Shown here: positions 3,256 through 33,751 of the stretch, piece by piece
Numbering within the stretch: the stretch's first letter is position 1
How the letters are laid out: each line of letters opens with the position of its first letter
Virus record (IMG/VR): IMGVR_UViG_3300010151_000064
Coordinates: 1-33,751 of that record
Reading direction: 5' to 3' (one strand)
DNA: 33,751 nt
Source: a virus
The notes under the pieces: model-generated
The model's input: only the letters and a program-made list of their open reading frames with translations
The model's database searches: none
Told to the model about the DNA's origin: nothing
Program-made: the position numbers and the translations under genes

Positions 3256-3279
3256 CATTTTAATTAATATTTATTATGT

Positions 3280-3330
3280 GGGTTGGTTCAGCAACCCTAA
3301 GTTGAGGGATTTATCCACTCAACAACCAAC
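3280..3330 (+). ncRNA. Pseudoknot RNA element, copy A (lacks 3' partner)
   Basis: P1 is GGGTTG (3280-3285) with CAACCC (3292-3297) around loop GTTCAG (3286-3291). P2 is GTTGAG (3301-3306) with CTCAAC (3318-3323) around GGATTTATCC. Both hairpins match the intact copies, but no CTGAAC follows within the next 100 bases, so the pseudoknot cannot form. The 3' side runs into a gene on the opposite strand. Probably a truncated copy. Confidence 0.6.
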
Positions 3331-3748: not shown

Positions 3749-3883
3749 TTTTTTGTTCTTTGTATATATGTAGATGCTTTACACACCCAAAAAATTATCA
3801 ATACTGAAATATAGTAACATAAGGGCAATAAGTAAATATTTATATTTAGTCAGACGTAGATGGTTAATTTAAAAAGTGTACAT

Positions 3884-3962
3884 GGGGTGTTTAAATACCC
3901 CTAGGCTGGGGATTTATCCATTCAACAACCAACTATATACTAATATATAAGAAGGACTGAAC
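3884..3962 (+). ncRNA. Pseudoknot RNA element, copy B (divergent)
   Basis: P1 is GGGGTG (3884-3889) with TACCCC (3896-3901). The loop reads TTTAAA instead of GTTCAG, so pairing with CTGAAC (3957-3962) keeps only about five of six pairs, one a wobble. P2 is degenerate but the inner GGATTTATCC is intact, and the 3' part (TATATAAGAAGGACTGAAC) is identical to the best copies. It lies 41 bases upstream of the NUDIX gene. This is the most decayed copy that still has every segment. Confidence 0.6.
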
Positions 3963-4003
3963 AACAAAGAGTTTATAAAAAAAAATTAAAAGAACATAAA
4001 AAA

Positions 4004-4724: not shown

Positions 4725-4755
4725 TTTGGGTTTTAAAAAAACTTTTTTATCTTTG
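4725..4755 (+). promoter_or_regulatory. Bacteroidetes-type promoter
   Basis: TTTG (4725-4728), 19 bases with an A-tract, then TATCTTTG (4748-4755), matching TTTG-N19/20-TAnnTTTG. The expected start site is at about 4760, just upstream of a remnant of the RNA element, and it would drive the gene at 4801. Confidence 0.7.
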
Positions 4756-4762
4756 TGTTATT

Positions 4763-4806
4763 GGGTTGTACTAACAATCTATTATATAATATAAAAATAA
4801 TTGGAC
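4763..4806 (+). repeat. Degenerate remnant of the RNA element
   Basis: Begins GGGTTG like intact copies, then a shortened hairpin (GGTTG, loop TACTAA, CAATC), then ATTATATAATATAAAAATAA and GGAC, which aligns with the 3' linker of copy C. P2 and CTGAAC are missing. The start codon of the next gene lies in its 3' end. It fits an internal deletion of an ancestral copy. Confidence 0.4.
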
Positions 4807-5093: not shown

Positions 5094-5100
5094 TGTTGTT

Positions 5101-5175
5101 GGGTTGGTTCAGCAACCCTAAGTTGAGGAAGTTTTTCATTCAATAACCAATTATATATTATAATAAGGACTGAAC
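5101..5175 (+). ncRNA. Pseudoknot RNA element, copy C
   Basis: P1 GGGTTG (5101-5106)/CAACCC (5113-5118); loop GTTCAG (5107-5112) complementary to CTGAAC (5170-5175). P2 is GTTGAG (5122-5127) with TTCAAT. Its inner stem is GAA/TTC where other copies have GGAT/ATCC, a compensated change. P1 start to CTGAAC is 69 bases, as in copies D and F. It sits at the 5' end of the transcript for the gene at 5221. No second CTGAAC repeat follows. Confidence 0.75.
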
Positions 5176-5220: not shown

Positions 5221-6654
5221 ATGAACTTTATAGATGCACTTAGAAATAAAGATACCTTTACAGAAAATGGTATGCCAACGCATTCAACTACTCTTAATAG
5301 TTGTGTGGATTTATTTTTTCAAATTGGTGCCTTAAGGGGTTCAGAAAAGCGTAGAAAATTATCTTTATTTTCAAAGGCTTTTGATTCAAACCCATTGATT
5401 GCAATGAAAATCCTTTTTTGGGTTAGAGATGTGAGAGGTGGTGCTGGTGAAAGACGGACATATAGAGATATTGTTGAATATCTTGCATTATATAATTCTT
5501 CTGGGTTACAGAAGAATATACATTTAATGCCAGAGTATGGTAGATGGGATGATGTATTAACATTGATTGGTACAAGCCTTGAAAAGGATGCCTTAGAGTT
5601 GATAGCCAATGCGTTGGAAAATGGTACATCGTTATGTGCCAAGTGGCTTCCAAGAGGTAATGGTAAAAACCAAGTTAAAAAGAAGCAAGCGAAAGCTATT
5701 AGAGAATATCTTAAAAAAACACCAAAAGAGTACAGAAAACTCCTTTCAAGTCTTTCTACTACGGTAGAGAATCTTATGTGCAATAAGGAGTTTTCTAAGA
5801 TAGAATACGGTAAGGTTCCATCAAAAGCCATGTCTGGTTATATGAGGGCATTCACAAAGAATGATGGTGATAGGTTTAGTGAATATCTTGAATCTGTTTC
5901 TAATGGTACAGAGAAGATAAATACTGGTGCTATTTACCCATATGATGTGACAACAAACTTAAAGTTTGGTAATTCAATTGGTGCTATGCAACAATGGGAT
6001 AATCTTCCAGACTTCATGGATGGTAACAAAGAAATGGTTTTACCTCTTGTTGATGTTTCTGGTTCAATGGATTGCCCAGTTGGTAGAAGTGGCAATGTAA
6101 CTTGTATGGATGTGGCAATCTCATTAGGGTTGTATATTTCTGAAAGAAATGTTGGTCCATTCAAGGATAGCTTTATAACTTTTTCCGCAGAACCAGAATT
6201 GCAACACTTAAAGGGTAATTTGGTTGATAGATTTAATCAGTTATCAGATTCAGACTGGGGGTATAATACTAACATAGAATCTGTATTTAAACTTATATTG
6301 GATAAGTCTGTTAAGAATAATGTTGCTAAAGAAGATATGCCAACTATTATCCTAATATTGTCTGATATGGAATTTGATGTTGCCACCAATTATAATGGGT
6401 GGGATATGACTGCTCAAGAAATGATTACTTCATTATATAGTGAACATGGTTATGAGACACCCAAAATAGTTTATTGGAACTTAAATTCAAGACAAGATAA
6501 TTGTCCCGTTAAGTTTGATGAAGTTGGCACTTCACTTGTTAGTGGTTTTTCACCATCAATACTTAAGAGTATATTGGGAGGAAAAGAAATGACACCAATG
6601 TCAATTATGTTAGAAACTATAAATCAAGATAGATATTCAGCTATTAAAGTATAA
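5221..6654 (+). CDS. DUF2828 / TROVE-like (Ro60-like) protein with vWA domain
   Basis: 477 residues. The N-terminal ~270 residues are an all-helical repeat region with FWVRDVRGGAGER, EYGRWDDVLTLIG, KWLPRGNGKN and VPSKAMSGYMRAF, which match the DUF2828 family. The C-terminal part is a von Willebrand A domain with an intact metal site, DVSGSM at about residue 278, and the later ILSDMEFD. This architecture parallels Ro60/TROVE proteins, ring-shaped RNA chaperones that bind Y RNAs; in this family RNA binding is an inference. The gene is preceded by RNA element C and followed by another structured stretch (6663-6723) and a terminator, so it seems to form a single-gene transcript. Confidence 0.85.
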   Translation: MNFIDALRNKDTFTENGMPTHSTTLNSCVDLFFQIGALRGSEKRRKLSLFSKAFDSNPLIAMKILFWVRDVRGGAGERRTYRDIVEYLALYNSSGLQKNIHLMPEYGRWDDVLTLIGTSLEKDALELIANALENGTSLCAKWLPRGNGKNQVKKKQAKAIREYLKKTPKEYRKLLSSLSTTVENLMCNKEFSKIEYGKVPSKAMSGYMRAFTKNDGDRFSEYLESVSNGTEKINTGAIYPYDVTTNLKFGNSIGAMQQWDNLPDFMDGNKEMVLPLVDVSGSMDCPVGRSGNVTCMDVAISLGLYISERNVGPFKDSFITFSAEPELQHLKGNLVDRFNQLSDSDWGYNTNIESVFKLILDKSVKNNVAKEDMPTIILILSDMEFDVATNYNGWDMTAQEMITSLYSEHGYETPKIVYWNLNSRQDNCPVKFDEVGTSLVSGFSPSILKSILGGKEMTPMSIMLETINQDRYSAIKV

Positions 6655-12822: not shown

Positions 12823-13281
12823 ATGGGAAACTTAGAATATTCATTTGATAACATATTAAAATCTTATATTGATACTGGTAAACAATTACCAGACCATCAA
12901 CTTAATCTTATTTCATCAAATAAGAATATGCTTAAAACATATCTTAGAAAAAGAGCTATCGCTGTTAAAATCAAAGGTATATTATCAGATAAGGAAATGG
13001 AATTATTGAAAAAATATGATAAGAAATCATATGATGATTATATGAATTATATATCAAATAAGAAGAGGTTGGTTTTATCTTTTAACAAACTAACCAGCTT
13101 AAAAGGTATAGAGAAGTTAACAAATTTGAAGTGGTTGAATTTAAATAATAACGAACTAACCAGCTTAAAAGGTATAGAGAAGTTAACCAATTTGAAGAGG
13201 TTGGATTTAATGAATAACAAACTAAGTGGTTCAGAAAAGGAAAGGCTTAAAAAAATATTTGGAAATAAAGTTATATTATGA
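12823..13281 (+). CDS. Short leucine-rich-repeat protein
   Basis: 152 residues from ATG 12823; an upstream start would overlap the previous gene. A helical N-terminal half is followed by about two and a half LRR units of the 22-residue type (LTSLKGIEKLTNLKWLNLNN, then LTSLKGIEKLTNLKRLDLMN). The units are near-identical at DNA level (66-base repeat), a sign of recent duplication. LRRs bind proteins. The stop overlaps the next start (ATGA), linking it to the nucleotidyltransferase. Confidence 0.8.
   Translation: MGNLEYSFDNILKSYIDTGKQLPDHQLNLISSNKNMLKTYLRKRAIAVKIKGILSDKEMELLKKYDKKSYDDYMNYISNKKRLVLSFNKLTSLKGIEKLTNLKWLNLNNNELTSLKGIEKLTNLKRLDLMNNKLSGSEKERLKKIFGNKVIL
13084..13215 (+). repeat. 66-base tandem duplication inside the LRR gene
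   Basis: Units 13084-13149 and 13150-13215 share long identical blocks, including ACTAACCAGCTTAAAAGGTA and the bases around it, and encode adjacent 22-residue LRR units. Copy number could change by slippage or recombination. Confidence 0.8.
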
Positions 13282-15283: not shown

Positions 15284-16108
15284 ATGAAACAAACAAAAAC
15301 TTATCACGAAATTGTTCAGAAATTAAGAGACTTCTTTTTAAGTAAAAACTTTGTGGAGGTACCAACACAAAGTAGAAAATCAATTCTCGCTGCCTGTGAG
15401 AACCCATATTCGGTAGCCACATTTACCTATGATGGTGAAGTTTGGCCACTTCCACAAACTGGTCAGATGTGGCTTGAATATGAAATGTTAAAGAATCCAG
15501 AATGGGAGGGGTGTTTCTGTATAAGCACTTCTTATAGAGATGAGAAAGACCCAATACCTGGTAGGCATGAGAAGATATTCCCAATGTTTGAATTTGAGTC
15601 AAAAGGTGGTATGGAAGATTTAATAAACCTAAACAAAGAATTGATTGAATACTTAGGTTTTGATACCCCTGTTAGTATTGATTATGATGAGACCTGTGAA
15701 AAATATGGTGGTGTTAAAATTCTTGAAGATGAACACGAATCAAAAATGTGGAAAGAACTTGGTCATTCAGTTTCTTTAGAAACTTTCCCATATAGAACTT
15801 CACCATTCTGGAATATGAAATATCTTGGAGATGATAAATTCAACAAGTGTGATGTTATTCTTTTTGGTCAAGAAACAATAGGCTCTGCCGAAAGAAGCTG
15901 CTGTTCAGATGAAATGAGAAAATTCTTTTATACCATAATGGATGGTGGTTACGCAAAAAAACTTTTTGAGCTTTTTGGGCAACAAAGAGTTGAAAATGAA
16001 CTTGAAGAATTTTTATCTTATGATTTTTTCCCACGATTTGGTGGTGGTATTGGGTTAACTAGATTAGGTAGAGCTTGGGAATTACACAAAGAGACCGAAA
16101 TGGCATAA
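15284..16108 (+). CDS. Class II aminoacyl-tRNA synthetase-like enzyme (AsnRS/AspRS core)
   Basis: 274 residues, only the catalytic core. Motif 2 is visible in TSYRDEKDPIPGRHEKIFPM followed by FEFES, and motif 3 in GGGIGLTRLGRA at the C-terminus; motif 1 lies in the first 35 residues. Order and spacing fit the Asp/Asn/Lys subclass, but the N-terminal OB-fold anticodon-binding domain is missing. Stand-alone cores of this kind include the archaeal AsnRS-related asparagine synthetase, or enzymes acting on non-tRNA acceptors. AsnA is encoded 10 kb downstream (26588), which makes an asparagine-related role worth considering. Confidence 0.82.
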   Translation: MKQTKTYHEIVQKLRDFFLSKNFVEVPTQSRKSILAACENPYSVATFTYDGEVWPLPQTGQMWLEYEMLKNPEWEGCFCISTSYRDEKDPIPGRHEKIFPMFEFESKGGMEDLINLNKELIEYLGFDTPVSIDYDETCEKYGGVKILEDEHESKMWKELGHSVSLETFPYRTSPFWNMKYLGDDKFNKCDVILFGQETIGSAERSCCSDEMRKFFYTIMDGGYAKKLFELFGQQRVENELEEFLSYDFFPRFGGGIGLTRLGRAWELHKETEMA

Positions 16109-16116
16109 CTATTTTA

Positions 16117-16160
16117 TAATATTAGGACAAAATGTCTTAATATTAGTTTGGACTTTTTTT
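16117..16160 (+). terminator. Terminator-like hairpin
   Basis: A 13-bp stem (16117-16129 with 16133-16145, one G-T pair, AAA loop) follows the synthetase-like gene by nine bases; a run of eight T comes at 16153-16160, a little far from the stem. Confidence 0.7.
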
Positions 16161-16186
16161 TGTACTTAACGATTTGAGTAAATTGA

Positions 16187-16194
16187 TAGCTTTG
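16187..16194 (+). promoter_or_regulatory. Promoter -7 element upstream of RNA element D
   Basis: TAGCTTTG fits TAnnTTTG. The nearest TTTG upstream (16159) is 24 bases away, longer than usual. Transcription from here would begin about ten bases before RNA element D. A second possible -7, TAATTTTG, overlaps the element start. Confidence 0.45.
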
Positions 16195-16209
16195 GGTATA
16201 AATAATTTT

Positions 16210-16284
16210 GGGTCGGTTCAGTGACTCTAGAGGGATTAATCCACTCAACAACCTATTATATACTAATATATAAGAGGACTGAAC
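16210..16284 (+). ncRNA. Pseudoknot RNA element, copy D
   Basis: P1 GGGTCG (16210-16215) with TGACTC (16222-16227), containing C-G where copy C has T-A. Loop GTTCAG (16216-16221) is complementary to CTGAAC (16279-16284), 69 bases from P1 start. P2 is shortened to GAG/CTC around GGATTAATCC. The gene at 16303 starts 18 bases after CTGAAC, so a 23-base guide would overlap its start codon. Confidence 0.7.
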
Positions 16285-16302
16285 AATAACGATATGTAAA
16301 AA

Positions 16303-26367: not shown

Positions 26368-26582
26368 AAATGAAAAAATTATTTATTACACTTACCATTA
26401 TCATGTTGGGGTTTATGGTACTTCAATCTTGTGATAATATTGACCCACAATTTAATCACATCTCCCCAGACATTGACCATATCCACAGGTCTGGGATTGA
26501 TACTTCAACAACAAATATTGACACATTAACAACAAATATTGACACATTAACAACAAATATTGACACATTAACAACAAAATAA
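26364..26582 (+). CDS. Small lipoprotein with TNIDTLT repeats
   Basis: 72 residues. Basic start, hydrophobic stretch and lipobox (LGFMVLQSC, Cys at about 23) predict lipid attachment. The C-terminal part is three TNIDTLT units encoded by perfect 21-base repeats. Together with the secreted hydrolase it overlaps, it could act in lysis as an outer-membrane (spanin-like) component or in surface exclusion; this is inference. Confidence 0.65.
   Translation: MKMKKLFITLTIIMLGFMVLQSCDNIDPQFNHISPDIDHIHRSGIDTSTTNIDTLTTNIDTLTTNIDTLTTK
26508..26570 (+). repeat. Three perfect 21-base repeats
   Basis: The 21-base unit starting ACAACAAATATTGACACATT occurs at 26508, 26529 and 26550, with a partial fourth copy. 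In frame, each unit adds seven residues to the lipoprotein. Confidence 0.88.
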
Positions 26583-26587
26583 AAAAC

Positions 26588-27589
26588 ATGAACAAATTAA
26601 TCGCAGAAGAAGCCATAAGAATGGTTAAAAACACATTTCTTTATAAACTATGTGACGAATTAAATTTAAGTGTTGTATCTGCACCAGTAGTGGTACTTAA
26701 AGGTACTGGCATCAATGATGACCTAAATGGTCTAGAAAGGGCTGTAGGTTTCCCAATTAAGGATATGGGTGAACAAAGGGCTGAAGTAGTACATTCTTTG
26801 GCAAAATGGAAACGTCTAAGACTTAAAGAATATGATATCGAAGAAGGTGATGGTATCGTTACTGATATGAGAGCACTTCGACCAGATGAAGAAATGTCAA
26901 AAATCCATTCAATTTCTGTTGACCAATTTGATTGGGAAAAACATATATCTGAAAAAGATAGGAATCTTAACACCCTAAAAGGCACTGTTAATAAAATTTA
27001 TAATGCTATTAAGTATACATATCAAACATCATTAATTAATGGTTGGACAGAGGATTCGCTATTACTTCCAGATAATATTACATTTGTACATACTGAAGAG
27101 TTAATAAAAGAATTCCCTAACTTAACACCCAAAGAAAGAGAGAACGCAATAGTTCAAAGGTATGGTTCAGTATTTCTTATTGGTATTGGTGGTGAATTAT
27201 CTAATGGTGTTAAACATGATGGTAGAGCCCCAGACTATGACGATTGGTCAACTCCAACAGGTGATGGTCTAAAAGGGTTAAATGGTGATATACTTATTTG
27301 GAACCCAGCTTTGGGTACTTCATTTGAAATATCTTCTATGGGTATAAGAGTTGATAAAACTGCATTACTTAGACAATTAGAAATAGAAGGTTGTCTAGAT
27401 AGAAAAAACTTATATTTCCATAATGAATTGTTAGAGGGTAGATTACCACAAAGTATTGGTGGTGGTATTGGTCAATCAAGATTAGCTATGCTTATTTTAC
27501 AAAAGAAACACATTGGTGAAGTACAAGTAAGTATATGGTCAGACGATGTGATTGAATCTGCAAAAGAAATGGGTATAGAATTACTCTAA
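26588..27589 (+). CDS. asnA: Aspartate-ammonia ligase (asparagine synthetase A)
   Basis: 333 residues, near the normal length of AsnA (about 330), and alignable by eye from end to end: VVLKGTGINDDLNGLERAVG, VHSLAKWKR, GIVTDMRALRPDEEM, DQFDWEKHI, and the C-terminal synthetase-like NGDILIWNPALGTSFEISSM and LPQSIGGGIGQSRLAMLIL. It makes asparagine from aspartate, ammonia and ATP. As a phage enzyme it would raise asparagine supply for the Asn-rich phage proteins. It is followed by RNA element E and the tRNA. Confidence 0.95.
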   Translation: MNKLIAEEAIRMVKNTFLYKLCDELNLSVVSAPVVVLKGTGINDDLNGLERAVGFPIKDMGEQRAEVVHSLAKWKRLRLKEYDIEEGDGIVTDMRALRPDEEMSKIHSISVDQFDWEKHISEKDRNLNTLKGTVNKIYNAIKYTYQTSLINGWTEDSLLLPDNITFVHTEELIKEFPNLTPKERENAIVQRYGSVFLIGIGGELSNGVKHDGRAPDYDDWSTPTGDGLKGLNGDILIWNPALGTSFEISSMGIRVDKTALLRQLEIEGCLDRKNLYFHNELLEGRLPQSIGGGIGQSRLAMLILQKKHIGEVQVSIWSDDVIESAKEMGIELL

Positions 27590-27605
27590 AATTAATTAAT
27601 ATTTT

Positions 27606-27675
27606 GGGTAGGTTCAGCTGCCCTAGGTTGAGGGATTAATCCACTCAATAACCAATTATATACTAAGGACTGAAC
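27606..27675 (+). ncRNA. Pseudoknot RNA element, copy E
   Basis: P1 GGGTAG (27606-27611) with CTGCCC (27618-27623), where A-T replaces the T-A of copy C. Loop GTTCAG (27612-27617) is complementary to CTGAAC (27670-27675). P2 GTTGAG (27627-27632) with CTCAAT (27644-27649), inner GGATTAATCC. The linker is shorter, so CTGAAC is 64 bases from P1 start. It begins 16 bases after the asnA stop; no promoter is evident, so it may be cut from the asnA transcript. Confidence 0.75.
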
Positions 27676-27741
27676 TTATCAATGGTGGTTTTGTTGTGGC
27701 ATATAAGAAGGACTGAACTATGGGGTTCTACACCCTTGAAA
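27670..27741 (+). CRISPR. CRISPR-like unit E: CTGAAC repeat, spacer, 20-base repeat, second spacer
   Basis: After the CTGAAC of copy E come 23 bases starting TTATCAATGGTGG (27676-27698), then GCATATAAGAAGGACTGAAC (27699-27718), identical in copy F. Further unique sequence follows (27719 onward). A third repeat is absent; only ATATAAGAA reappears at 27751. Repeat and spacer sizes equal those at 33564-33606. No cas gene lies beside this copy. Conventional CRISPR arrays have longer repeats and more units, so this is called only as CRISPR-like. Confidence 0.4.
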
Positions 27742-27838
27742 AAGAATACTATATAAGAAAAGAAAAGGTTGTCGTGGGAAGGGTGCATGGTATGGTAGTA
27801 GAAATCTAAGCCTACACACAACAACATACAGTAAAAAT
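27719..27838 (+). other. Unassigned stretch between array E and tRNA
   Basis: 120 bases with no credible gene. CACCCTT (27731-27737) is complementary to AAGGGTG (27779-27785). TGCATGGTA at 27784 repeats the first bases of the tRNA (27839), which hints at tRNA debris or mispaired duplication. TAGAAATCTA forms a small hairpin. Possibly the 3' part of an RNA made from element E. Confidence 0.35.
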
Positions 27839-27911
27839 TGCATGGTAGAGCAGTGGTCAGCTCATGAGTCTCATAATCTCAAGGTCGAAGGTTCGAATCC
27901 TTCCCATGCTT
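27839..27911 (+). tRNA. tRNA with CAT anticodon (Met, or Ile with modified C)
   Basis: Cloverleaf: acceptor GCATGG (27840-27845)/CCATGC (27904-27909), D stem GAGC/GCTC, anticodon loop CTCATAA with CAT at 27872-27874, five-base variable loop, T stem GAAGG/CCTTC with loop TTCGAAT. CCA is not encoded. The first acceptor pair is T-T, and the anticodon stem has a T-T at its inner pair. The anticodon stem lacks the three G-C pairs of initiator tRNA, so elongator Met or Ile(CAU) is more likely. Confidence 0.88.
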
Positions 27912-27932
27912 CTAATCAAATTAATTTAAACT

Positions 27933-28169
27933 ATGTCAAAAATTAAACATCCAGATTATTATAATAATGGTATTGAAATGTGGGATTATGCTCATTCACA
28001 TAACCTAAGTTTCTATGAAGGTAATATTATAAAATATGTTACAAGATGGAAATATAAGAATGGGGTTGAAGACCTTAAAAAAGCCAAAGAATATTTGGAT
28101 AAATTAATAGAATTAGAGACAAAAAACCCCAAAAAACAAATAAAATCTATTAGATGTTTAATAACATAA
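27933..28169 (+). CDS. DUF3310 family phage protein
   Basis: 78 residues: HPDYYNNGIEMWDYAHSHNL, then YEGNIIKYVTRWKYKNGVED and LKKAKEYLDKLIEL. This is the complete signature of DUF3310, a small helical family widespread in phages and often named nucleotide-kinase-like; its activity is unknown. Overlaps the next gene by 16 bases. Confidence 0.88.
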   Translation: MSKIKHPDYYNNGIEMWDYAHSHNLSFYEGNIIKYVTRWKYKNGVEDLKKAKEYLDKLIELETKNPKKQIKSIRCLIT

Positions 28170-28426
28170 ATAAAAAGGGTGTTTATATTAGTGATGTTGC
28201 CCACCCCAAAAACGATAAAAATCAAAAACATGGGTATGTTAAACATATTTGGTGTGGTCATTTACTTTTGGAGGGTAATTATACTAACGGGAAAAGAGAT
28301 GGTGTGTTCATTGATTATTATTGGAATGGTAACCCTTATAGGGTTGTTCGATACACACTTGGCAAAAAACACCCCTATTATATAGAATACGATAAACATA
28401 AGATAAAAAAATGTTTTCACATATGA
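28154..28426 (+). CDS. MORN-like repeat protein
   Basis: 90 residues. KHGYVKHIWCGHLLLEGNYT and NGKRDGVFIDYYWNGNPYRV resemble MORN variants (G-x-W/Y-x-x-Y-x-x-G). Such beta-hairpin repeats mediate protein or lipid contact. Starts inside the DUF3310 gene and overlaps the next gene by ATGA, so three genes are co-translated. Confidence 0.65.
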   Translation: MFNNINKKGVYISDVAHPKNDKNQKHGYVKHIWCGHLLLEGNYTNGKRDGVFIDYYWNGNPYRVVRYTLGKKHPYYIEYDKHKIKKCFHI

Positions 28427-28602
28427 AAAAGAATCAATTAGACAAACAAGGGAATCAAGATGGATATTGGTCATCGACTTTTTTTCTTACCCAATCAACC
28501 TTCAAGGGTCATTATAAAAGTGGTGTAGCAGTAAATTATTGGGAATGGGTGTGTTATAATGAAACAAACACGGATATTCTAAAACAATTTTACATTATAT
28601 AA
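28423..28602 (+). CDS. Second MORN-like small protein
   Basis: 59 residues from ATG 28423 (an ATG at 28411 is in frame). KQGNQDGYWSSTFFLTQSTF and KGHYKSGVAVNYWEWV repeat the pattern of the preceding protein, suggesting duplication and divergence. A similar short gene lies at 33332. Confidence 0.6.
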   Translation: MKKNQLDKQGNQDGYWSSTFFLTQSTFKGHYKSGVAVNYWEWVCYNETNTDILKQFYII

Positions 28603-28872: not shown

Positions 28873-30648
28873 ATGACCGAACATCAGATTAAATCTACAA
28901 TAGTATTTTTAATATTTTTTTTATTAAAAACCCTAACATTTTCTCAAATTTCCATACATGAGGAACAACTAAATTACTATAATAACTTAGGTGAATTAAC
29001 AGACCATCAATATGACAAGTTAAATGGGTATTCAAATACGCAAACTAACACAAATAGGTCAACTTGTAATTTAAATAAAATTGTTTTTGGTTGGCACCCC
29101 TATTGGGTTGGTAGTGCTTATTTAAATTATGATTGGAATTTATTGTCAGATTTTAGTTATTTTTCTTATGAAGTAAACCCATCTACTGGTAATGCTAACA
29201 CAACACATAATTGGTCTACAGCTAACGCAGTCGATAGTGCATTAGCAAATGGTGTTAGAGTTAATCTCTGTGTTACCCTATTTTCAAATCATACTACGTT
29301 TTTTAGTAGCCCCCTAACACAACAAACATTAATCACCAATTTAATTAGTTTAGTCCAAAGTAGAGGTGCACATGGTGTAAATATAGATTTTGAATCCATG
29401 TCAAGCTCACATAAAACGGATTTCACTAATTTTATGATTAATTTATCTAATCAAATGCATGCCGCAATACCTGGTTCTCAAGTAAGCGTTGCGATATATG
29501 CTGTTGATTGGAATAATTTATATGATGTTGCTACGTTAGCACCCTATGTCGATTTATTTGTTATGATGGGTTATGGATATTATTGGACAAATAGTTCAAC
29601 GGCAGGGCCAACCGACCCATTATACCATTATATATCAAATAGTTACAAATATAGCCTCTCTCGCTCAATAACTTATTATTTGGACAAAGGATTGCCTGCC
29701 GACCAATTTGTTATCGGATTACCCTATTATAGTAGAGATTGGCCAGTATCTAGTGGAACAATACCTTCCCCGACCACTGGTGCTGGGAGTGCTAAAACTT
29801 ATGCACAAATAAGAAACAATAGTAATGGGTATTATAATAATAAAATATGGCATAACCCAAGCAAAACACCATATTATACATATGTGGACGGCACTAACAT
29901 CAGACAATGTTTTGCGATAGATGATGAGAGTTTTTCTGAGAGATTAAAAGTGATACGAAGACGAGGTTTAGCTGGAATGGGTATTTGGGCATTAGGATAT
30001 GACAATGGTTATTCTAATTTATGGGATGGTATTGAAAATGAGTTTACAGATTGTTTAAGTGAACCTTGTAGTGATACCCTTTATGATATGGGGGGTGAAG
30101 AACGTAATTACTATGATAGAGAAAATTATATTTATACTATTAGTGGTACAATAGGTGGTACAATTGATTTGGATTTTAAATCGTTTGATGTGGAACTAAA
30201 TTATGATTATCTAAGATTATATGATGGTATAGATACATCGTCACCGTTAATTGGGGTGTATACTGGTATTAATAGTCCTGGTATTGTTAACGCTGGTAGT
30301 GATGTCACCTTTTGGTTTTATTCTGATGGTGCAACAACAAATCCTGGTTGGGAAGTTGTATATAACTGTAACATTCCAACACAAACCCCAGTTTTTAATA
30401 TAAACACATTTAAGTCTTACCCAAATCCTGTATATAATATGTTAAACTTTATGTGGGAAACACCAATTAATGAAATTGGTTCACTATATATTATAGATAA
30501 ATTAGGTTGTGTTTTATTAGAAAAAAAGGTTAATCTATATGAAGATTTAGTATTACAATTAGATTTGGGGTTTTTAGTCAGCGGAATTTATACATATCAA
30601 CTAAAAACAAAAAATGCTAAATGTGTGGGTGTTTTTAGGAAATATTAA
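28873..30648 (+). CDS. Secreted GH18 glycosidase with CUB-like and T9SS sorting domains
   Basis: 591 residues. Signal peptide at about 8-25 (FLIFFLLKTLTFSQ). GH18 domain at about 68-390: catalytic HGVNIDFES with Glu about 174, preceded by VRVNLCVTLF and followed by VDLFVMMGYGYYW and GMGIWALGYDN. At about 400-505 a CUB-like domain (YTISGTIGGTIDLDFKSFDV, YDYLRLYDGID). From about 512, FKSYPNPVYNMLNFMW ... GIYTYQLKTKN is a type A T9SS C-terminal sorting domain, which sends proteins across the outer membrane only in Bacteroidetes. Substrates may be chitin or peptidoglycan-like glycans. Possibly acquired from a host. Confidence 0.9.
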   Translation: MTEHQIKSTIVFLIFFLLKTLTFSQISIHEEQLNYYNNLGELTDHQYDKLNGYSNTQTNTNRSTCNLNKIVFGWHPYWVGSAYLNYDWNLLSDFSYFSYEVNPSTGNANTTHNWSTANAVDSALANGVRVNLCVTLFSNHTTFFSSPLTQQTLITNLISLVQSRGAHGVNIDFESMSSSHKTDFTNFMINLSNQMHAAIPGSQVSVAIYAVDWNNLYDVATLAPYVDLFVMMGYGYYWTNSSTAGPTDPLYHYISNSYKYSLSRSITYYLDKGLPADQFVIGLPYYSRDWPVSSGTIPSPTTGAGSAKTYAQIRNNSNGYYNNKIWHNPSKTPYYTYVDGTNIRQCFAIDDESFSERLKVIRRRGLAGMGIWALGYDNGYSNLWDGIENEFTDCLSEPCSDTLYDMGGEERNYYDRENYIYTISGTIGGTIDLDFKSFDVELNYDYLRLYDGIDTSSPLIGVYTGINSPGIVNAGSDVTFWFYSDGATTNPGWEVVYNCNIPTQTPVFNINTFKSYPNPVYNMLNFMWETPINEIGSLYIIDKLGCVLLEKKVNLYEDLVLQLDLGFLVSGIYTYQLKTKNAKCVGVFRKY

Positions 30649-33472: not shown

Positions 33473-33488
33473 TAAAACAATCATTTTT

Positions 33489-33563
33489 GGGTCGGTTCAG
33501 CGGCCCTAGGTTGAGGGATTAATCCACTCAACAACCAATTATATATTATAAGAAGGACTGAAC
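33489..33563 (+). ncRNA. Pseudoknot RNA element, copy F
   Basis: P1 GGGTCG (33489-33494) with CGGCCC (33501-33506): C-G where copy E has A-T. Loop GTTCAG (33495-33500) complementary to CTGAAC (33558-33563), 69 bases from P1 start. P2 GTTGAG (33510-33515) with CTCAAC (33527-33532), inner GGATTAATCC. It has its own promoter and is the most complete copy, lying 98 bases before the gene at 33661. Confidence 0.8.
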
Positions 33564-33629
33564 TAGTCTACTATATATCCTCTTCAGCATATAAGAAGGA
33601 CTGAACAAACCACCATCAAGAGTAGTTTA
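33558..33629 (+). CRISPR. CRISPR-like unit F next to a candidate effector
   Basis: After the first CTGAAC come 23 bases starting TAGTCTACTATATATCC (33564-33586), then GCATATAAGAAGGACTGAAC (33587-33606), then a second unique stretch starting AAACCACCATCAAGAG (33607 onward). Repeat sequence and spacer length are the same as in unit E while the spacers differ. The gene at 33661 follows directly. Only two repeats exist, which limits certainty. Confidence 0.45.
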
Positions 33630-33660: not shown

Positions 33661-33751
33661 ATGATTATAATAACAAGAAAAGTTGAAATATTTGTCAACG
33701 AAAAAGATAATGACCAAAGAAAAAATTTCTATAAGCAATTAAGAGATTATG
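33661..33751 (+). CDS. N-terminus of a possible Cas12f/TnpB-like effector (partial)
   Basis: The gene runs off the window after 30 codons. The visible start, MIITRKVEIFVN, followed by a charged stretch with YKQLRD, resembles the N-terminal strand and following helix of compact type V effectors of the Cas12f/TnpB group (I recall MIIIRKLKL ... YKFIRD). It sits 55 bases after the second CTGAAC repeat of unit F. Neither the RuvC domain nor the zinc ribbon can be seen, so a quite different protein is possible. Confidence 0.4.
   Translation, partial: MIIITRKVEIFVNEKDNDQRKNFYKQLRDY

Follow-up and report, generated by a model that had tools for sequence, protein, structure and literature searches.

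In CRISPR (clustered regularly interspaced short palindromic repeats)-Cas12f systems of type V-F (V-U3/Cas14), repeats end in AAC before the spacer, as do those of the phage units described here, and the adaptation genes Cas1/Cas2 are absent from some loci. The protospacer-adjacent motifs (PAMs) of V-U3 Cas12f are C- and T-rich (PMC7229846). In the structure of TnpB, nucleotides −6 to −2 form a pseudoknot with the stem-1 loop region, and this pseudoknot is reported to be conserved in all Cas12 guide RNAs (PMC10097598). The dual-guide RNA of TldR is cut by RNase III, and we found no tandem repeats described for it (PMC13418256). Viruses may also carry small arrays: the mini-CRISPR arrays of SPV1 and SPV2 have one or two spacers, which differ at the same position and target the sister virus's adjacent gene (PMC6858448). 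Here we describe repeat units, foremost the tRNA-adjacent unit E, in positions 1 to 33,751 of IMG/VR virus record IMGVR_UViG_3300010151_000064 (the window, 33,751 nt, whose positions are used throughout), and compare them with the sister phage contig IMGVR_UViG_3300027996_002167 (G001).

An earlier annotation made without database searches (the sequence-only reading) had described unit E as a CRISPR-like guide cassette acting in trans and lying away from any effector. The first part is the best-supported interpretation, given the change of spacers relative to G001, a cas12f gene 6 kb away, and a Cas12f-type guide-RNA fold; the second overlooked that gene, which starts at 33661. On these sequence comparisons, we consider it likely that the units belong to a phage-borne Cas12f (V-F-like) system with dispersed cassettes, each made of a scaffold and a mini-array of guides, within which unit E would act in trans.

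The repeat occurs far above chance expectation. The 20-mer GCATATAAGAAGGACTGAAC is found exactly at 27699-27718 and 33587-33606, and with two to three mismatches at 3943 and 33544, against zero expected from 100 dinucleotide shuffles; its core AAGGACTGAAC is present six times, on the + strand only, against 0.5 expected with one mismatch allowed. Repeats are 18–20 nt long, end in GGACUGAAC, and number one to three per unit, each with a variable, unique spacer. The sequence-only reading had reported an identical repeat in units E and F, the same 23-base distance after it, and unrelated spacers, and took the equal period as evidence against chance. Recurrence of the repeat and the lack of similarity between the spacers of E and F were both confirmed, although the full 20-mer stands only at the second copy in unit E, the first (27665-27675) being the 11-nt core AAGGACTGAAC without the TATAAGA part. 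The distance of 23 nt is correct for both units and is not a rule: the core-to-core period is 43 in units E and F but 35, 30, and 34 in G001, so the equal spacing is a coincidence without meaning. Unit E also extends further than had been proposed: a structured leader that had gone unnoticed places its true start at 27602, ∼65 nt upstream.

Each unit opens with such a scaffold of ∼60 nt, comprising two hairpins and an anti-repeat, which recurs in at least four other places in the window. In an alignment of 12 scaffold copies, taken from related viral contigs as well as the window, 98% of hairpin cells were paired, with a covariation score of 0.22 (vs. 0.13 for shuffled and ≤0.07 for slid alignments). 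GUUCAG, the hexaloop of hairpin 1, is a perfect complement of CUGAAC, the 3′-terminal repeat sequence found directly before every spacer. Scaffold CCAAUUAUAU can in addition pair with AUAUAAGAAGG of the repeat, a modest complementarity that 1–20% of shuffles equal. Together, these two pairings account for the whole repeat as two scaffold-pairing strands, followed by the spacer, and in the predicted guide-RNA fold of Cas12f type the repeat supplies the strand immediately 5′ of the guide. In silico complementarity and covariation thus point to a scaffold of the trans-activating CRISPR RNA (tracrRNA) type that pairs with the repeat, as in V-F systems. An Rfam search returned the tRNA only, and a blastn search of the scaffold against phages gave no match.

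The cas12f open reading frame (ORF) begins 54 nt after unit F and is truncated by the window end, whereas in G001 the gene is intact (435 aa), and the first 30 residues of the two proteins are identical. The G001 protein was identified as Cas12f by PADLOC (Cas12u3, 1e-111; Cas12f, 5e-111), by its match to Cas12f in the PDB (8e-71), and by a Pfam TNB domain. It retains GIDLG, IEDL, and DNADHNAA, which hold the RuvC D/E/D residues, as well as the Zn ribbon; because these motifs are kept, the RuvC triad looks active. An effector of the V-F kind, with RuvC and Zn ribbon, is therefore encoded by an intact gene in the sister phage. That gene has units on both sides, a two-repeat unit upstream and a three-repeat unit 13 nt past its stop, the latter where TnpB-ωRNA systems have their guide RNA, just beyond the nuclease gene. 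Scaffold and Cas12f are both missing from G005, a more distant relative. Five contigs, all of them fragments, yielded no Cas1.

Cellular relatives of the phage protein provided an independent anchor. Among 395 Bacteroidota genomes, seven genes matched at E-values of 1e-30 or better; these closest relatives are dCas12f genes, and all five that were inspected in full adjoin sigma-like genes. One matches the solved dCas12f 9n9c at 1e-194, and of the three that were aligned with the phage protein, none retains the RuvC residues or the C-terminal Zn ribbon. Directly 3′ of all seven lies GAGGGTG[CTTGTA]CACCCGYARGGTGAGG...CACTCACTRAAT...GTATATACAAC or a variant of it, and these dCas12f guide RNAs align with the phage scaffold, sharing the same two-hairpin, loop-handle plan. 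Between them the loop-handle pairing is kept by three two-sided changes (CG to GC, AU to UA, and GC to AU), and its covariation score is 0.40 (vs. 0.18 shuffled and ≤0.10 slid). By eye, L080 shows the same loop-handle compensation in a shifted register (UUUGCA/UGCAAA).

Three loci are common to the window and G001 (DUF2828, cas12f, and asnA-tRNA). The identity of scaffold and first repeat at these loci is 94%, 83% (with a 10-nt gap counted), and 94%. Conservation of the downstream flanks is 90–100% for DUF2828 and cas12f; the asnA-tRNA flank is near-identical by eye, the scripted value of 72% reflecting an offset comparison. The spacers, in contrast, are at chance identity, except F1 (57%). 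At unit E, identical sequence in the spacer positions would have indicated a fixed leader; instead, G001 has a different spacer amid conserved scaffold, repeat, and flanks, an outcome that favors guides.

A spacer target search, also suggested by the sequence-only reading, was productive for one of the two unit E spacers. E2 is an exact 25-nt match to the G001 + strand from 8971. At this same locus the G001 unit is followed by a small lipoprotein-like ORF, to which the match is antisense, and the E2 18-mer occurs once in all IMG/VR contigs, i.e., in G001. The 5′ flank of the protospacer is TTTTCTTA, with CTTA directly before TATGGGGTTCTACACCCTTG. For E1 and the other spacers no convincing target was found, and ten spacers joined by N gave no match to phage records. 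The E1 18-mer matches in 24 viral contigs were mostly sense INGGF-coding sequence in unrelated genes and did not extend far beyond 18 nt, and were discarded as targets; 17-mer matches in genome contigs, scattered across unrelated taxa, were judged to be chance. In the window, the 35-nt segment 27719-27753 is inverted compared with G001, and the neighboring lipoprotein-like ORF has lost its 5′ part to a deletion, with a 3′ remnant following. It is quite possible that E2 is a mere local 35-bp inversion after the repeat and not an acquired guide, which would concern the origin of E2 alone and is compatible with a real Cas12f system. The inverted segment exceeds a guide in length and carries TATA at either end, and CATATAAGAA is common to repeat and gene; the inversion nevertheless begins precisely where the handle ends, and in the sister phage the target is intact, with a 5′ CTTA.

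Several observations weigh against a guide system. E2, the sole spacer with a target, lies inside an inversion that could be a replication accident. The G001 spacers are 12–17 nt, short for Cas12f, and most contigs are fragments. The loop-handle covariation, which comes down mainly to one divergence between two families, is good evidence without being overwhelming, and the scaffold model R1 found no match in the 395 Bacteroidota genomes, in a search that was insensitive. Unit E has no recognizable promoter of its own and is probably read through from asnA, whereas Bacteroidota-type promoters precede 5097 and 33485. Finally, the single-repeat units (tail sheath, DUF2828, 16206, and 3880) carry A/T-rich “guides” resembling ordinary leaders, and those at the sheath locus are identical in G002, G003, and L069; a guide function of single-repeat units in gene leaders is less clear.

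The last of these points bears on the possibility that the units are cis-acting 5′-leader elements (for translation, stability, or antitermination), in which the repeat would bind the ribosome or a protein and the spacers would be leader DNA free of constraint. Most single-repeat units do lie 15–52 nt ahead of a start codon, and a promoter or −7 element is found just upstream of 5097, 16206, 33485, and G002:9014. We nonetheless regard this as unlikely, since it leaves unexplained the Cas12f gene with units on both sides, the architecture common with dCas12f guide RNAs, the units before tRNAs, the tandem repeats, and the turnover of spacers between conserved flanks. Riboswitch, Y RNA/Ro, and antiterminator ideas, raised by the unit preceding the DUF2828 “RNA-binding” gene, were abandoned once the Cas12f gene and the guide RNAs of dCas12f had come to light. 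Small TnpB-like homing insertions, whose guide would be the downstream flank and which would drive themselves into unit-free alleles, are improbable: compared with G001, the 3880 and 16206 units are cleanly inserted and the flank resumes 3–9 nt after the handle, but the first 3–9 guide nt mismatch the empty G001 site so that the seed fails, array spacers are neither flank nor shared, and no TnpA or element ends were seen. That the units are RNA anti-CRISPRs or decoys mimicking a host Cas12f guide RNA to block the host system, a use of single repeat units known in phages (PMC11656645), is highly improbable, as the phage owns a Cas12f, a decoy needs no full scaffold with spacer turnover, and the insensitive search of 395 Bacteroidota genomes found no host with a matching scaffold.

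For the Cas12f guide system favored here, we infer transcription, pairing, processing, cleavage, and a biological role as follows. The transcript would consist of one tracr-like scaffold and then tandem modules resembling CRISPR RNAs, each a repeat plus a spacer. Pairing of the scaffold loop GUUCAG with CUGAAC at the repeat 3′ end would form the Cas12/TnpB pseudoknot, and scaffold CCAAUUAUAU would pair with AUAUAA-GAA-GG of the same repeat, which would position the next ∼16–25 nt to act as guide. With duplication confined to the repeat, a single scaffold could serve either guide, in cis by choice of repeat or in trans after cleavage. Loaded Cas12f would then cut guide-matching DNA beside a T/C-rich 5′ PAM. 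The fast change of guides between sister phages and the match of E2 to the sister's adjacent gene make exclusion of, or conversion against, co-infecting relatives a likely use, and the system probably has a role in competition between sister phages. If so, phages turn a nuclease and mini-arrays of their own on their sisters, with spacer turnover in a setting where Cas1 was not found. It is an open question how CRISPR arrays emerged from single-guide TnpB systems, and the presence of one, two, or three repeat-spacer modules per scaffold at different loci of the same genomes makes the transition from a single guide to an array directly testable. More tentatively, and with considerable doubt, the units could be a natural intermediate between a single-guide ωRNA and a tracrRNA-plus-CRISPR array, in which the handle alone was duplicated, guides were multiplexed without Cas1/2, and new guides arose by local template switching or sister recombination and were used against sisters. 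In a literature search that left many subscription papers outside, no description was found of a Cas12f scaffold followed by repeat-spacer modules in tandem.

TABLE 1. Putative guide units, their parts, and adjacent features in the window (MFE, minimum free energy).
Feature	Position	Strand	Remarks
Unit E scaffold (tracr-like)	27602-27661	+	Covarying hairpins, MFE fold, dCas12f guide-RNA architecture
Unit E hairpin 1	27606-27623		Loop GTTCAG, 27612-27617
Unit E hairpin 2	27627-27649		
Unit E anti-repeat	27652-27661		CCAATTATAT
Unit E repeat 1	27665-27675	+	Shortened handle AAGGACTGAAC; CTGAAC complementary to loop
Unit E spacer/putative guide 1 (E1)	27676-27698	+	Differs from G001 orthologue at chance level
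Unit E repeat 2	27699-27718	+	Full GCATATAAGAAGGACTGAAC
Unit E spacer/putative guide 2 (E2)	27719-27753	+	First ∼25 nt identical to G001 + strand from 8971
tRNA-Met(CAT)	27839-27912	+	Downstream of unit E
Unit F scaffold	33485-33543	+	Bacteroidota-type promoter TTTG-N20-TACATTTG starts 44 nt upstream
Unit F repeat 1	33544-33563	+	
Unit F spacer 1 (F1)	33564-33586	+	57% to G001 spacer
Unit F repeat 2	33587-33606	+	
Unit F spacer 2	33607-33625	+	Chance-level identity to G001 spacer; flanks 90%
cas12f start	33661-33751	+	First 30 aa; rest beyond window end
Single-repeat unit, DUF2828 gene leader	5097-5175	+	Perfect promoter TTTG-N19-TATCTTTG
Single-repeat unit	16206-16284	+	Missing from same G001 site
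Single-repeat unit, mutated loop GTTTAA	3880-3962	+	Inserted relative to G001
Scaffold remnant without repeat	3276-3327	+	
Decayed unit remnant (weak)	4751-4806	+	

Around the units, segments 3849-3965 and 16160-16290 are clean insertions relative to both G001 and G004, which suggests that single units are mobile or often lost. Two successive units, one with hairpin 2 deleted, stand ahead of the DUF2828 gene in G001 and G004; the window gene encodes a DUF2828/DUF7788 protein (5221-6654; phrog_850, “RNA-binding protein”). Unit E follows a phage-encoded aspartate-ammonia ligase, AsnA (26588-27589), and in the relative L029/L038 the interval from asnA to the gene after it contains a DNA methyltransferase-like gene instead of the cassette and tRNA. 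The phage also encodes, at 15284-16108, a class II Asp/Asn-tRNA-synthetase-like protein. The glycosyl hydrolase 18 protein with CUB and Por secretion-tail domains (28873-30648) points to a Bacteroidota host. Many small KDGKxxGYWExYHxNG-repeat proteins (window 28154-28602; L071 569-8284) appear to have expanded by tandem duplication, and tandem repeats within genes were seen at 13052-13225 (66 nt) and 26496-26579 (21 nt).

Compared with known systems, the phage units resemble CRISPR-Cas12f V-F in effector family, pseudoknot, second repeat/anti-repeat pairing, and variable spacers, and differ from it in a repeat of just 18–20 nt, one to three repeats, scaffold and array within one short unit, the many dispersed units, and the lack of Cas1 in the five fragmentary contigs. 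With TnpB-ωRNA and TldR (PMC10097598; PMC13418256) they share the pseudoknot and a guide RNA 3′ of the nuclease gene, although those have one guide per scaffold. The RNA-guided transcription system dCas12f-sigmaE of Bacteroidota (PDB 9n9c) includes the closest cellular protein relatives and has the same scaffold architecture, 3′ of the gene; in place of its inactivated RuvC and adjacent sigmaE gene, the phage protein keeps RuvC and Zn ribbon with no adjacent sigmaE partner, and the phage repeats are in tandem. The likeness to the SPV1/SPV2 mini-arrays lies in the few spacers, their difference at the same position, and the targeting of a sister's adjacent gene, one or two spacers against close relatives being seen here for E2 only. 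Those arrays have host-type repeats and no cas genes, whereas the phage described here has its own Cas12f and scaffold.
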